From contig NW_008705572.1 in NCBI RefSeq assembly GCF_000186865.1, positions 765,384 through 829,383 of the forward strand: a stretch of 64,000 nt of DNA, read 5' to 3'. The notes below the pieces were generated by a model. The model was not told the origin of the DNA, ran no database searches, and was given only the letters and a program-made list of their open reading frames with translations. Of the stretch, positions 36,402 to 41,679 are shown piece by piece. The first letter of the stretch is position 1. Each line of letters opens with the position of its first letter. Source of the stretch: Aureococcus anophagefferens (Eukaryota; Sar; Pelagophyceae; Pelagomonadales; Pelagomonadaceae). Both the position numbers and the translations under genes were made by a program.

Positions 36402-36983
36402 CGCGGACGCCTTGAGCAGCCGCCGCTCCTTCTCCGCCGCGCGCCGCGCCTTCCGCTCGGCCTTCTTCGCCTTCTTCTCGGCCTTGGCCGCGCGCTGGCG
36501 GTTGAGCTCCGCCGTCATCCACTGCTCCACGAAGAGGCTCGGGTCGCTGTAGGCGTGCGCGCAGGACTCGCCGCCCACGGCCGCGTCGATGCGGTCGAGC
36601 GGCGGCGGCGGCGCGCAGCTCCGCTCCAGGGCGACGAGCCCGTCGGGCCGCGTCGACGGCGTCAGCAGGCTCGGCACGGCGCCGACGACGAGCTCGCGGC
36701 CCCGGCCCGCGCCGCAGCGGAACGACGCGGCGCGCCGCGCGGCCGCGTCCGCCGCGCCGACGCGCCGCGCGAGGCGGTCCGCGCGCGCGGCCGCGCTCGC
36801 GACGCGCTCGTGCGTCTCGCCCGAGAGGCGCAACAAGTTGTCGAAGACCTCGGCCGAGAGCGCCGCGAGCGCGCCGACCTGCTCGAGCGCGCCGCGGAGC
36901 AGGCCGAACGTCTCCTCGCCGCCGGCCGCGCGGCCGTTCGCGAACCACTCCGGCCCGGGCAGCTCGCGGCCCGCCAGCGGCAT
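33855..36983 (-). CDS. SCAR: SCAR/WAVE actin nucleation-promoting factor
   Basis: 1,042 residues. It activates Arp2/3 downstream of Rac as part of the WAVE complex. The N-terminal SCAR homology domain is residues ~8-80 ([40 protein letters not shown]). Next is a basic Lys/Arg helix ([20 protein letters not shown]), then long disordered acidic, coiled-coil ([20 protein letters not shown]), Ser/Gly-rich and Pro-rich segments (~800-870). Two WH2 motifs follow ([16 protein letters not shown] and [16 protein letters not shown]), then an acidic tail [17 protein letters not shown]. The usual Trp of the acidic Arp2/3-binding tail is absent and Phe takes its place. The central region is much longer than in animal WAVEs. 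Its ATG comes one base after the stop codon of the upstream small gene. Confidence 0.85.
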
Positions 36984-36984
36984 C

Positions 36985-37222
36985 TCACCAGTCCTCGCTC
37001 TCCACGGACCAGATCAGCCGCCAGTGCGCGCGCCTACGGTGCACATCGGTCGGCAAGCGGATGGAAACGGGAAACGCACACGACGTAGAAGACGAGGATG
37101 AGCAACGAACCGACGACGAAGAGCAGGAAGCAGACGACGTCCTCCTTCTCCAGGCGCCGGCGCAGGCCGAGCCGGTAGCCGAAGTTGCGCGTCCGCCGGC
37201 TCAGCTTCGACGGCAGGACCAT
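36985..37222 (-). CDS. 63-residue single-pass membrane protein, two exons
   Basis: [20 protein letters not shown] leads into one hydrophobic helix ([19 protein letters not shown]). A 46-bp intron (37034-37079, GTGCGT donor, GTAG acceptor) then gives the tail [15 protein letters not shown] and a stop at 36985-36987. Without splicing the frame ends [14 protein letters not shown], a less convincing tail. The positive N-terminus and acidic C-terminus set the topology. No family is recognised. The stop is one base from the SCAR start codon, so the two genes may share a transcript or have overlapping untranslated regions. The other side faces PSMA2 across about 204 bp. Confidence 0.5.
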
Positions 37223-37426
37223 CGCATTGCCACAACAGACTTAGAGACTGGGGCAGCCCGAGGCGCTTCGAGGCTCGACGGAGCTTCTTGGCCGGGGGTC
37301 GACGGACGACGGTCGGACTCTCTCCGCGCGCCTAAGTCGACTGAGACGGTCGACCGCGAGCGCGCCCGCCGCGACTGCCGCGTAGACAACCGCGCCTCTC
37401 GACCGCGCCGTCGCCGCTCTTCCGCG

Positions 37427-38125
37427 ATGGAGGCCGGCTACGGCTTGACGACGTTCAGCCCGAGCGGCAAGCTCCCCCAGCTGACGAGCGCGATGACGGC
37501 GACGAACGAGGGCAAGACGTCGCTGGGCATCAAGGCGAAGAACGGCGTCGTGCTCTGCACGGACAAGAAGCTGAGCTCGAAGCTCATCGAGTCCGCCGAC
37601 GTGCACAAGCTCGAGAAGATCACGCCGAGCTGCGGCTTCGTGTACAGCGGCGTCGGCCCGGACTACCGCGTCCTGGTGAAGAAGGCGCGGAAGCAGGCGC
37701 AGGCCTACTACCTCACGTACCGGGGCCTCAAGCCCATCCGGGCGCTCGTCCAGGACACGGCGGCGGTGTGCCAGGAGTACACGCAGTCCGGCGGCGTCCG
37801 GCCCTTTGGCGTGAGCCTGCTCGTCGCGGGCTTCGACGACGAGGGCCCGCAGCTCTTCCAGGTCGACCCCTCCGGCGCCTTCTTCGGCTGGCAGGCGTCG
37901 GCCATCGGCAAGAACTCCAAGAACGCCAAGTCCTTCCTCGAGAAGCGCTACAACGAGGACGTCGAGCTCGACGACGCGATCCACACCGCGCTCCTCACGA
38001 TGCGCGAGGGCTTCGAGGGCGAGATGAACGAGCACAACATCGAGCTCGGCGTCATCGGCGAGGACCGCGTCTTCAAGGTCCTCACGCCCGCCGAGGTCAA
38101 GGACTACCTCGACGAGTCCAACTAG
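37427..38125 (+). CDS. PSMA2: 20S proteasome subunit alpha type 2
   Basis: 232 residues, intronless, full length for alpha-2. It is a non-catalytic outer-ring subunit that gates the 20S proteasome. Seen: N-terminal gate segment [19 protein letters not shown] (alpha signature; the usual QIEYA is here QLTSA), [120 protein letters not shown] and [25 protein letters not shown] and [12 protein letters not shown] are subunit-specific for alpha-2. The change of the IEYA core to LTSA in the N-terminal alpha motif is worth noting. Confidence 0.95.
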
Positions 38126-38150: not shown

Positions 38151-38365
38151 AACCACGCCGCGATTCGAACAATGTGACATCTCGGACGAGTGGACTACGA
38201 CAAGGACCAGGGAGGGGGCGTTCCGTACTCCGCAACCACGCCGCGATTCGATCTCGGACGAGTGTACTACGACGAGGACAAGGGAGGGGGCGTTCCGTAC
38301 TCCGCAACCACGCCGCGATTCGATCTCGGACGAGTGTACTACGACAAGGACAAGGGGAGGGGTCC
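38151..38365. repeat. 72-bp tandem repeat, three copies, between convergent genes
   Basis: Copies start at 38151, 38234 and 38306 with AACCACGCCGCGATTCGA. Spacing is 83 and 72 bp; the first copy has an 11-bp insertion (AACAATGTGAC) after the first 18 bases or so. Each copy continues CTCGGACGAGTG, CTACGACAAGGAC and a G-run followed by CGTTCCGTACTCCGC. They fill the space between the PSMA2 stop (38125) and the antiporter stop (38372), so they lie in the 3' untranslated or terminator region of both genes. No coding role is supported. Confidence 0.88.
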
Positions 38366-38371
38366 GCGGCG

Positions 38372-41300
38372 CTAGCGCCGCGGCGGCGTCCGCGGCATGG
38401 GCGTCAGGTCCGCGTTGGCCGTGAGGCGGAGCGGCGGCGGCGAAGCGCCGTCGGGCGTCCGCGGCGACGCGGAGCCGGGCGGCGAGCCGGGCACCGTGAG
38501 GAGCGTCGGCGTCGCGGACCGCGAGAGCTGCGCGAGCGAGCCCGCGGAGCCGTGGCCGAGCGACGAGAGGTTCGAGCCCGAGGTCGAGGGCGTCGCGTTG
38601 ATGAAGCTGAGCGACGCCGCGCGCGTGATGCCGCCCTTGCGCTCGCAGCGCGCCTCGATGCGGTGGATGCGGTGGAGCGAGTCCTCCATGTTGTGGACGA
38701 TGACCTCCTCGAGGTCCTCCTCCTCCTCGTCGACCGAGGGCGTCGGCGGCCGGCGGCCGCCCATGGTGTGGTGCACGGACGCCTCCTCGTCGATGGGCGA
38801 CATGGCGGCGCCGCGGTCCCGCTTCGCCGCCTCGAGCTGGCGCGGCGCCTCCGGCGGCAGGAGGAGCCGGCGCCCGTCGGGCACGAAGGTCGCGAAGCAC
38901 ACGAGGACGACGGCCGGGGAGAGGCTCATGAGCGCGCCGAACTTGGCCTGGTCCATGACGCGCGCGTTGTCCGCGAAGGCCATGCCGCTGATGAAGAGCG
39001 ACACGGTGAGACCCACGGACGAGATGACGCCGTCGACGACGAGCGCGCGGAACGACATGCCCTCGGGCCGCGGGAAGCCCATGAGCGTCGCGACCTGCGA
39101 CCCGCCGATCATGCCCAGCGTCTTGCCGACCAGCAAGCTGAGGAAGACGACGAGCGAGTAGCCGCCGACGCCGTCGACGCGCACGCCCGCGTTCACGGCG
39201 CCGAACGCGAAGAGCACCCCAAAGTCCACGAAGCCTTTCGTCGCGTGCTCGAAGTCGTGGAGCGGCGACCGGTGGGGCTTCGCGTCGTCCTCGTCGTCGC
39301 TCACGTCGTCGCCGTCGCCGCCGGCGTCTTCGGAGTCCAAGTCGAGCGGCAGGAAGGGCACGACGAAGCAGAGCGCGAGCGACGGGTGCACCGCCGCGTA
39401 GAGCAGGCCGTACCACGCGAGGGGCCCCGCGAGGGCGCAGTAGACCCACCACTGGGCGACGCGGGCGCGCCGCAGCGCGTAGGCGACGCCCATGGCCGCC
39501 AGGCAGAGGAGCAGGTACGCGTACGCGGGCGCGACGGCCGGGTCGGATTCGCGGTAGGCGACGGCGATGATGACGAGGCCGATGCCGTCGTCGATGATGG
39601 CGCAGAGGAGCAGGAAGTTGATGGCCGGGTGGCCCGCGCCGAAGACGCAGAGCGCCGTGACCCAGGCGATGGAGATGTCCGTCGCCGTCGGGATGCCCCA
39701 GCCCTTGGCGAGCGTGGCGAAGTCGTCCGCGAGCAGGCCGGGCACGGCCTTCGCCGCCGCGAGGATGGCGAGGTAGGCGGCGATGGGGCCCAGCACGCCG
39801 CCGACCGTGCCGCAGAGCGGGTTCACGGCCTTGCGCGTCGGCGGGTAGAGCGACCTGTGTGGAAATCAACCAGTGAGCTGGGACGTCGGGGCCAAACTTC
39901 GGAACTCTCGAGCTCCGTCGCATCGAAGTCGATTCGGCTGATTTTTGGACGAATCGATCGCTCTCGTCGAGTTCTCGAAGCACAGCCGAAGAGTCCGGCG
40001 CAATCCGCGCACATTGAAGTCGGGTCGAAGATGTGATGTCCGCGCGGAGATCGACCCGCCGGGCTGGAACGCCTCCGCGATCTCCTTCACCGCGAGGCCG
40101 AAGAAGAGCGCCATGAGGACGTCGTTGACGATGAAGTGGAGCGTCACGTCGTGGCGCCGCAGGCGCAGGCCGAAGAGGGACGGGTGGGCCCCGTCGCTCA
40201 GGCGCCGGTGGTCGTCCGCGTCGTCGTCGCCGTGGTCGACGCCCGTCCACCGGTCGTACGACGGCCGCGCCTCGTTCGCGAGCACGAGCGCGAGGACGAT
40301 GCCGCTCAGCAGGGGCAGCGCGTACTTCTGGGAGAAGTCGACGAGCGCGCCCAGGGACACGCCGTGGCGCCAGGCGTCCTTCTGCCGCGCGTCCCAGCGC
40401 CGGTCCTGCCGCTCGTAGGCGACGCGGAGCACGTAGCCGCCCGCGGGCAGCACGGTCGACTCGCCGTCGGAGTCGCCCTTGAGCAGCGCCGCGCGCTCCG
40501 CCTCGACGAGCTGGTCCTTGAGGTCCCGCAGTTCCGCGACCATGCGCTCCTCGCGCGCCGCGAGCGACCGCTTCGTCGGCCGCGTCGTCCGCGGCAGCAC
40601 GCGGAGCCCGCGGAGGCGGCCGTCCAGGGCGTCGAGGATGGCGCGCCCGTCCTTCGCCTCGTAGAGCGTCTTGACGATGGCGTCTTCCTGCAGGAGCGCG
40701 GCCGCGGCCGCGCCCATCTCGACGTGGCGGTCGTGGCGCTGGCGCGCGCGGCCCTCGAAGACGTCGCCCTTGGGCCCCAGGATGAGCACGATGAAGCGCG
40801 CGCGGAGCGTGCAGGTCCGCGCGTCCTCGCCGTCGGCGAGCACGTGCTCCTCGAGGCCGCTGACGACGGACGACCGGAGGCGGACGAGGGCGGACGCGTC
40901 CGCGCGGAGCCACTCGAAGTCGTCGTCGATGAGCACGTGCACCGCCTCCTCCTCGGCGTCGGGCGCCAACGCGTCCTTGAGCGGCGACGGCGGCGGCGCC
41001 CGCTTCGCCTCCTCGCGCGGCTCCTCGTGGGCCGACGCGTCGAGCGACGTCCGCGACCCGCCGAGGACGTCGTCCGCGGACGTGGACCGCGCGCGGAAGA
41101 GGTCCCCGAAGCTCAGGGTCCGCGAGGGCCGCTTCGGCAGCGCCTCGGCGGCCTCGAGCGCCTTCTTCCGCCGGTGCTCCGCGAGCGCCGCGTCGTGCTC
41201 CAGGACCTTCTTGCGGCCGAGGTGCGACACCAAGGCCGCGAGCGCCGCGCCCGCGTCCGTGCCCGACATCTGGCCGTCGCGCACGAGGTGCTCGACGATG

Positions 41301-41679
41301 GCCCGCGCCACGGGCTCGAAGACGTCGCCCGTGCCCCGGCCCTCGACGTCCAGGAGCACGAGCTCCGGGTGCAGGCTCTCGCGAAACGCCATCGCTCCGA
41401 AGACCGAGATGCTCGGCAGGTGCGCGCGGCCGAACTTGGGGCCCTCGACCTGCGGTGCGTTGGTGTCGCGGGGTCCGGGGCGGGGCGGGGCGGGGCGGGG
41501 CGGGGGGGGGGGGGGGTACTCACGCAGTCCTCCTCTAAATCCTCTTCGAGGCCGTAGTTCCAGCGCCGCGTCTCGTGCCAGCCGTCCTTGCGGAGCTCGT
41601 GCATCTCGGCGAAGAGGTGGCGGTTCCGGAAGACGTGGATGCCGTCCGTGTGGCCCGAGGGCTCGGAGGACATCATCAT
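38372..41679 (-). CDS. Fusion of an SLC4 (band 3) cytoplasmic domain to an NhaA-type Na+/H+ antiporter, three exons
   Basis: Exons 41679-41524, 41449-40056 and 39854-38372 give 1,010 residues. Residues ~15-360 match the cytoplasmic domain of SLC4 anion exchangers: LFAEMHELRKDGWHETRRWN, YGLEEDLEED, ELVLLDVEG, VRLRSSVVSGLEEHV, ARFIVLILGPKGDVFEG, HVEMGAAAAALLQEDAIVKT and DALDGRLRGLRVLPRT. The membrane part is not SLC4 but NhaA: FIVNDVLMALFFGLAVKEIA, KAVNPLCGTVGGVLGPIAAY, GWGIPTATDISIAWVTALCV, LLCAIIDDGIGLVIIAVAYR (the Asp pair of the ion site), VGKTLGMIGG with the TM10 Lys, and DGVISSVGLTVSLFISGMAF. A cytosolic acidic loop and a ~150-residue tail follow. It should exchange Na+ for H+ under control of the cytosolic domain. 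The 74-bp first intron has a long G/C run; the second is an introner. Confidence 0.88.
39855..40047 (-). mobile_element. Introner element (193 bp, older copy) in the NhaA fusion gene
   Basis: On the plus strand it starts CTGTGTGGAAATCAACCAG. Its right end (GATGTGATGTCCGCGCGG) has drifted from the expected complement. The flanking duplication is AGAGCGAC/AGATCGAC (39847-39854 and 40048-40055), seven of eight bases equal. The core TTCGGCTGATTTTTGGACGA and TCTCGTCGAGTTCTCGAAGC are intact. The intron of the minus-strand gene is 39855-40055 with a GT donor from the target copy and CAG from the element. The join gives EAFQPGGSLYPPTRKAVNP, matching NhaA. The mutated end and TSD mark this as the oldest of the four GGAATTC-type or related copies. 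It is antisense to the gene. Confidence 0.88.
41471..41516. repeat. G-tract (GGGGC repeats then 15 G) inside the first intron of the NhaA fusion gene
   Basis: On the plus strand, five GGGGC units are followed by a run of 15 G (41502-41516), ending five bases from the splice donor of the minus-strand gene. On the RNA it is a C-rich tract directly after GTGAGTA. It is a candidate G-quadruplex/i-motif and also a likely place for sequencing length error. Confidence 0.85.

Follow-up and report, generated by a model that had tools for sequence, protein, structure and literature searches.

The locus described here raises the question of whether the cytoplasmic domain of one family of ion transporters can be carried by a membrane part that belongs to another. 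It lies in a stretch of 64,000 nucleotides of the brown-tide alga Aureococcus anophagefferens (assembly GCF_000186865.1, contig NW_008705572.1, positions 765,384 to 829,383 of the forward strand), which is called the window throughout, and an initial annotation made from the letters alone had proposed that one minus-strand gene, running from 41679 to 38372, fuses the regulatory head of the SLC4 (band 3) exchangers to an NhaA antiporter. Our analysis predicts from the sequence that the product of this gene is one membrane protein, with an SLC4 (band 3)-type cytoplasmic domain followed by an NhaA-type Na+/H+ antiporter and then by a tail with a conserved motif; the start, stop and strand first given proved to be exact.

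The fusion gene, its paralogue and its family

The 1010-residue product of in-silico splicing matched two Pfam families at E ≤ 1, namely Band_3_cyto at residues 21-340 (61.6 bits, E 1.3e-16, cut-off 34.3; profile positions 2-290 of 294) and Na_H_antiport_1 at residues 479-834 (174.9 bits, E 3e-51, cut-off 23.5), so that Band_3_cyto does score on the head residues as the annotation had supposed. Neither the SLC4 membrane domain HCO3_cotransp nor PTS_EIIA_2 gave a Pfam match in the window protein at E ≤ 1; by eye its head shows no PH motif of the EIIA type, in a region where the alignment around the EIIA histidine is unreliable. With 44.0 bits in a six-frame search, the frame of exon 2 by itself already exceeds the cut-off of Band_3_cyto, and exon 3 alone exceeds that of the NhaA profile (144.3 bits). 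When family profiles were compared with solved structures, the fusion-head profile matched NBCe1 with 125.7 bits and band 3 (1hyn) with 103.9 bits, and the profile of the membrane part matched NhaA with 135.7 bits. In the structure predicted for the homologue P0006, the head agrees with that of band 3 over 231 aligned residues at a root-mean-square deviation of 3.5, most of the head being covered, and the membrane part matches the NhaA fold with 26-31% identity to solved NhaA chains in the structure alignments. The identity of both parts is in this way confirmed by Pfam, by profiles against solved structures and by the prediction for a homologue. A chance or weak resemblance was considered and rejected, both domains being far above cut-off and the homologue fold in agreement.

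In the predicted splice model the gene, with its ATG at 41679 and its stop codon ending at 38372, has three exons and two introns, and its features are as follows.

41524..41679, minus strand: exon 1, codons 1-52, with the start codon and the opening block of the head (HETRRWN...LEEDL)
41450..41523, minus strand: intron 1, phase 0, 74 nt, GT...AG, containing a run of C-rich pentamers
40056..41449, minus strand: exon 2, with the remaining head, a linker and the NhaA transmembrane segments (TM) 1 and 2 as far as QPGG
39855..40055, minus strand: introner, 201 nt with the GT donor or 189 nt with the alternative GC donor at 40043
38372..39854, minus strand: exon 3, with the NhaA core (ATDIS, IIDDG, GKTLG), the C-terminal tail and the stop
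40586..41619, minus strand: Band_3_cyto domain, residues 21-340, split by intron 1
38855..40363, minus strand: NhaA module, residues 415-850 (Pfam and residue mapping), split by the introner
38609..38728, minus strand: conserved C-terminal motif, residues ~893-932, EEDLEEVIVHNMEDSLHRIHRIEARCE..., kept in an 11-row family alignment

The region of the C-terminal motif contains a helix (902-928) in the predicted P0006 structure. Intron 1 carries the tandem repeat CGGGG at 41476-41515. In the splice model both introns can be removed in frame, as had been claimed, and the product would have 1010 residues with the GT donor of the introner or 1014 with the GC donor.

The window copy needs two intron removals, one with an unusual donor, which leaves room for the suspicion that two adjacent genes were read as one through an artefact of assembly, gene model or splicing. 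We give this reading next to no credence. The genome (G000, 49.05 Mb, 86 contigs; our genome-wide searches score the best candidates) holds a paralogue on the same contig, C12, at ~332.7-336.2 kb, where both domains stand in one uninterrupted stop-to-stop frame of 1139 codons (Band_3_cyto 74.9 bits, NhaA 155.6 bits) and intron 1 is absent. It aligns with window residues 16 to 953 at 56% identity, and it shares 1027 of 1029 aligned residues (99.8%) with P0001, a database protein of A. anophagefferens. The junction of exons 1 and 2 is colinear with the paralogue and with P0006. Both Pfam models thus fall on one translation, in the window gene after in-silico splicing and in the paralogue without any. 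Because no intron separates the two domains in the paralogue and colinear proteins are encoded on other contigs, the claim that this is one gene is borne out, the alternative of two separate genes is rejected, and the artefact is refuted for the fusion family. One of the colinear relatives, Pelagomonas P0004, has MMETSP transcriptomes among its sources. Head-to-head with the paralogue (L004:2362-5664, plus strand) there is a PF00999 Na+/H+ exchanger gene (L004:606-1706, minus strand; C12:331105-332205; 186.9 bits), and the two could share a promoter.

The second intron belongs to a repeated element. There are 1727 candidate copies in the genome, and of the 40 that were scored the 39 other than the window copy are 83-89% identical. 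The element is flanked by an imperfect 8-base target-site duplication, GTCGATCT/GTCGCTCT, with one mismatch in the window copy; such duplications were seen by eye in 14 alignments of 12 loci, the window copy included, and at the 12 loci the element starts like CTGTGTGG and ends in CACACAG. This structure agrees with the available part of PMC9860276, according to which an introner in Aureococcus adds 12 bases, the element contributing 4 of them and the duplication 8. The copies, the duplication and the in-frame removal identify the element as an introner, its splicing being predicted. Its GTGG donor reads GCGG in the window copy, so that splicing may use the GC donor, adding four residues, or the GT of the duplication, adding none. 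P0003 (98.2% identical to the window protein) crosses the introner site without the element, which also speaks against an artefact, and P0023 (99.8% identical) reads into it; the comparison suggests presence/absence variation of the introner at the fusion locus.

Among the best candidates Band_3_cyto (E ≤ 10) has two loci in the genome, both NhaA fusions, and NhaA has three, the window gene, the paralogue and one plain NhaA. HCO3_cotransp has three places (on C20, C4 and C23), at none of which Band_3_cyto was matched at E ≤ 10, a search that short exons could escape.

In the databases, three family searches, with ~8000 candidates scored in each, yielded at least 23 distinct proteins bearing both Pfam labels. 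The profile built from the two copies retrieved 15 proteins, of which 14 had both labels, and a wider profile retrieved 25, of which 21 had both; the other four were P0016 and P0021, which lack the Band_3_cyto label, P0023, which reads into the introner, and P0027, a plain NhaA. P0028, also with both labels, came from the third search (120 of 5336 listed). The named sources are Aureococcus anophagefferens and Chrysophaeum taylorii (Pelagophyceae), Pelagomonas calceolata, and Alexandrium monilatum (Dinophyceae), whose entry may be contamination. On rescanning, 13 of 16 fusion proteins exceeded the Band_3_cyto cut-off, the scores below it being those of P0020 (29.0), P0028 (32.2) and P0016 (20.3). 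In P0024 and P0025 (~1520 residues) Band_3_cyto is matched in four and three stretches respectively, and each looks as if it had a pair of heads; in P0022 the head is preceded by an EF-hand match that stays under its cut-off. Of the proteins listed for A. anophagefferens, P0001, P0002 and P0007, which look like models of one locus, represent the paralogue, and the window gene appeared as the unnamed ENA proteins P0003 and P0023. Public gene sets may therefore lack the window gene or contain it in broken form.

Directly behind the stop codon of the fusion gene there is a 72-base tandem array (window 38179-38362, 2.5 copies, 95% matches), which separates it from a convergent proteasome subunit gene on the plus strand (36506-38122, 184.1 bits).

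The head and its bacterial relatives

Within the head, all 20 fusion heads compared keep the arginine of the RFLF block (NBCe1 R278). At the position of NBCe1 R298 there is Arg in 0 of 20, and at that of E91 there is Glu in 10 of the 17 rows having a letter there. According to the accessible text of a 2015 review (PMC4664831), E91 and R298 are completely conserved among SLC4 HCO3- transporters and their role in HCO3- entry is debated. The absence of the R298 arginine therefore gives no support to a role in an HCO3- pathway, and we consider the fusion head unlikely to be an entry path for HCO3-.

Heads that resemble it were found in bacteria. The Band_3_cyto cut-off was exceeded in 3 of 13 bacterial genomes carrying related NhaA proteins, with 11 among 294 genomes of one phylum, and the 12 distinct loci encode ten SLC4 proteins and two stand-alone EIIA proteins. 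In the ten SLC4 proteins, all planctomycete, an N-terminal EIIA domain, which Band_3_cyto matches in part, precedes the SLC4 membrane domain (HCO3_cotransp 517-598 bits, PTS_EIIA_2 on the head 71-90, Band_3_cyto 31-77), and a PH motif was seen by eye in all ten heads, for example STAIGHAVAVPH. An EIIA-headed SLC4 protein is present in 9 of the 294 sampled genomes of the phylum. Their positions are these.

L110:1282-3261, L111:1189-3237, L112:1060-3225, L126-L129 and L132 (+), L130 and L131 (-): loci of the planctomycete EIIA-headed SLC4 proteins
G003, G002, G013, G238, G302, G163, G148, G205, G037, G031: genomes carrying them

Bacterial, fungal and plant SLC4-like proteins are described as having no head in the part of PMC4664831 available to us. 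The planctomycete proteins, judging by their sequences, seem to form a link between EIIA and the SLC4 head, and their EIIA head is a candidate origin of the band 3 head.

These relatives also make it conceivable that the fusion head was derived independently from a bacterial EIIA domain and merely resembles that of SLC4. SLC4 heads have the EIIA fold, as stated in the text available from PMC4664831; P0024 matches PTS_EIIA_2 as well (47.1 bits); SLC4A11 reaches just 31.3 bits with the fusion-head profile, below the bacterial EIIA heads; and Band_3_cyto also scores above its cut-off on the two stand-alone EIIA proteins (35.8 and 40.2 bits, with PTS_EIIA_2 much higher at 77.0 and 104.6), so that this label alone is not decisive. 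Against such an origin, 12 of the 13 matched solved SLC4 sequences score 96-126 bits with the fusion-head profile, mostly over positions ~18-316, and the seven planctomycete proteins that the profile comparison covers (all but L129, L130 and L131) score 35-49 bits in two pieces (~67-131 and 198-314), with the ETARW-type block outside. That block is present in the fusion heads. As the planctomycete heads match more weakly and without the block, we assign the fusion head, on its sequence, to the eukaryotic SLC4 kind and hold an independent derivation to be very improbable.

The NhaA module and its proposed function

Residues D65, E78 and T132 and the catalytic D133, D163, D164 and K300 (E. coli numbering) are kept in all 22 fusion modules, the window included, where D576, D605/D606 and K761 correspond to D133, D163/D164 and K300. 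E252 is kept in 20 of 22, E82 is Ala in 22, and 21 modules have Lys in place of H256. Only 4 of the 22, the window among them, retain H253, compared with 33 of the 36 bacterial relatives, a difference consistent with a shift in control that accompanied the new head. Asp and His are abundant between TM1 and TM2 in most fusions, as they are in several of the ten bacterial rows shown, and the window module has an acidic insert ahead of SPLHDFEH. The departures from the pH-sensor residues of E. coli, together with the 26-31% identity to solved NhaA chains, would also suit a membrane part that moves another cation or acts as a sensor with no Na+/H+ exchange, and we regard this as improbable.

The origin of the module was approached by a tree of 60 rows comprising 22 fusion modules, 36 bacterial proteins (28 chosen from 80 loci and 8 from 118 listed proteins), E. 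coli NhaA and the plain NhaA of the genome; gene-model variants (P0001, P0002, P0007) and fragments (P0021, P0023, P0026) were left out. The fusion modules adjoin a bacterial subfamily, far from the two classic NhaA proteins, whose end branches are long, and by this sequence comparison the NhaA part groups with that subfamily, apart from E. coli NhaA. P0025 falls outside in the free tree, and 10% of bootstrap trees have the fusions as one group. A tree in which all fusions are held together fits equally well (log-likelihood 0.69 higher, approximately unbiased test p-AU 0.573), so the sequences are compatible with one fusion event. The modules lie beside all 36 bacterial rows, and the profile behind the search that gave the 80 bacterial loci had a bacterial sequence as its first row; Planctomycetes are not claimed as the donor. 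A fusion of Band_3_cyto to NhaA was found neither in the 13 genomes with related NhaA nor in the 294 genomes of one phylum; the possibility that the fusion arose ready-made in bacteria was rejected for these genomes, none of the 12 distinct loci above cut-off having an NhaA match.

The protein would, with a probability of roughly 0.7, expel Na+ electrogenically under the control of a degenerate head of EIIA fold in the cytosol. It may reside in the plasma membrane or the vacuole membrane with its head in the cytosol, and would work as an NhaA-type elevator taking about 2 H+ in for each Na+ expelled. Electroneutral exchangers of the NHE type cannot expel Na+ at pH 8 outside, and an electrogenic antiporter can; the membrane potential would drive Na+ out even with seawater more alkaline than the cytosol. 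Positioned at the cytosolic face close to the acidic loop, the head may regulate the antiporter when it receives a signal, for example pH, phosphorylation or the binding of a partner, and in most fusion proteins it may stand in for the partly kept histidine pH sensor of the E. coli type. PF00999 has 19 matches in the same genome, some of them pieces of one gene, so the fusion would not be its sole Na+/H+ exchanger.

Several observations weigh against this proposal. The ratio of 2 H+ to 1 Na+ is general knowledge of E. coli NhaA carried over to the fusion. The P0006 model has a predicted template modelling score (pTM) of 0.52, which leaves the placement of the head relative to the membrane part unfixed. 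H256 is K or R in all 36 bacterial relatives and E82 is absent from them too, so neither change is tied to the head. The window protein keeps both E252 and H253, and the sensor-replacement argument therefore fails for the window copy. The NCBIfam equivalog TIGR00773 (cut-off 254 bits) is not reached by P0006 (121.1), P0003 (123.8) or P0019 (115.6), nor by the bacterial relative P0027 (129.8). Finally, the E91/R298 charge pair of SLC4 is not kept in the fusion heads, so that the functions of animal SLC4 heads cannot simply be transferred to them.

The head of band 3 ties it to ankyrin and to proteins 4.1 and 4.2, and the fusion head might likewise be mainly a part for anchoring or assembly, which would form dimers and tether the antiporter to the cytoskeleton or a partner without gating transport. 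According to the available text of PMC4664831, ankyrin-1 and proteins 4.1 and 4.2 are bound by the head of AE1, and AE1 and AE2 retain most of their transport once the head is removed; the fold match to most of the band 3 head points the same way; the conservation of the head core, on the other side, fits anchoring and regulation alike. We see this as a less likely role, though a serious one, and retain cytosolic control of Na+ extrusion as the preferred reading.

Comparison with known systems

The initial annotation knew of no described protein of this design. No description of the fusion was found by title or start of abstract among the papers listed, subscription papers and preprints being outside coverage, and that part of the claim stands; it needs qualification in that the domain pair already occurs in databases under automatically assigned names ('Na+/H+ antiporter 1', 'Band 3 cytoplasmic domain-containing protein'). 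In the part of PMC9133084 that is accessible, the Na+/H+ antiporters are those of PF00999 and NhaA is not mentioned. The protein combines a familiar antiporter family with a head described in a different one, and it shows that the band 3 domain can be transferred between ion pumps of different kinds. According to the accessible text of PMC4664831, a pre-existing gene seems to have given rise to the SLC4 head, of which no isolated homologue was identifiable in the genomes available in 2015. More tentatively, and with rather less than even confidence, the head may be a portable control module that predates animal SLC4 or arose independently of it; in marine protists it would have been fused once to a bacterial-type electrogenic Na+/H+ antiporter, doubled in some lineages, and would place Na+ extrusion under direct cytosolic control; together with the planctomycete SLC4 proteins it may mark a path from EIIA to the head of red-cell band 3. 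With the head on an unrelated transporter its job becomes testable by comparison, because only features common to both can be core, and the ocean algae Pelagomonas and Aureococcus gain a candidate regulated Na+ extruder.

Compared with E. coli NhaA (PF06965, TIGR00773), the fusion adds a head of ~400 residues, a tail of ~150 residues and acidic and Asp/His-rich inserts, and its modules differ in the replaced H256, in belonging to another subfamily and, for P0006 and P0003, in TIGR00773 scores far below the cut-off. Closer to the membrane part is the bacterial NhaA subfamily with the FFGIAAKEITE-type motif (Planctomycetota, Geobacter and others), which shares KEIxEA, GGSL/GGAL and GWGIPTATDI with it; at least 118 listed relatives, of 415-565 residues, have no Band_3_cyto label, and P0027 is headless by Pfam. 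SLC9C1 and SOS1 belong to another antiporter family and carry other regulatory domains, placed behind the membrane part. With the SLC4 exchangers and cotransporters (band 3/AE1, NBCe1) the fusion head shares the ETARW-like block, LLD, RFxxxxLGP and the fold, whereas the window protein lacks the HCO3_cotransp domain and the fusion heads lack the R298 arginine. The EIIA-headed SLC4 proteins of Planctomycetota differ in their SLC4 membrane part, their PH motif (by eye) and the unmatched ETARW block, but like the fusion they place an EIIA-fold domain, matched in part by Band_3_cyto, ahead of an ion transporter.

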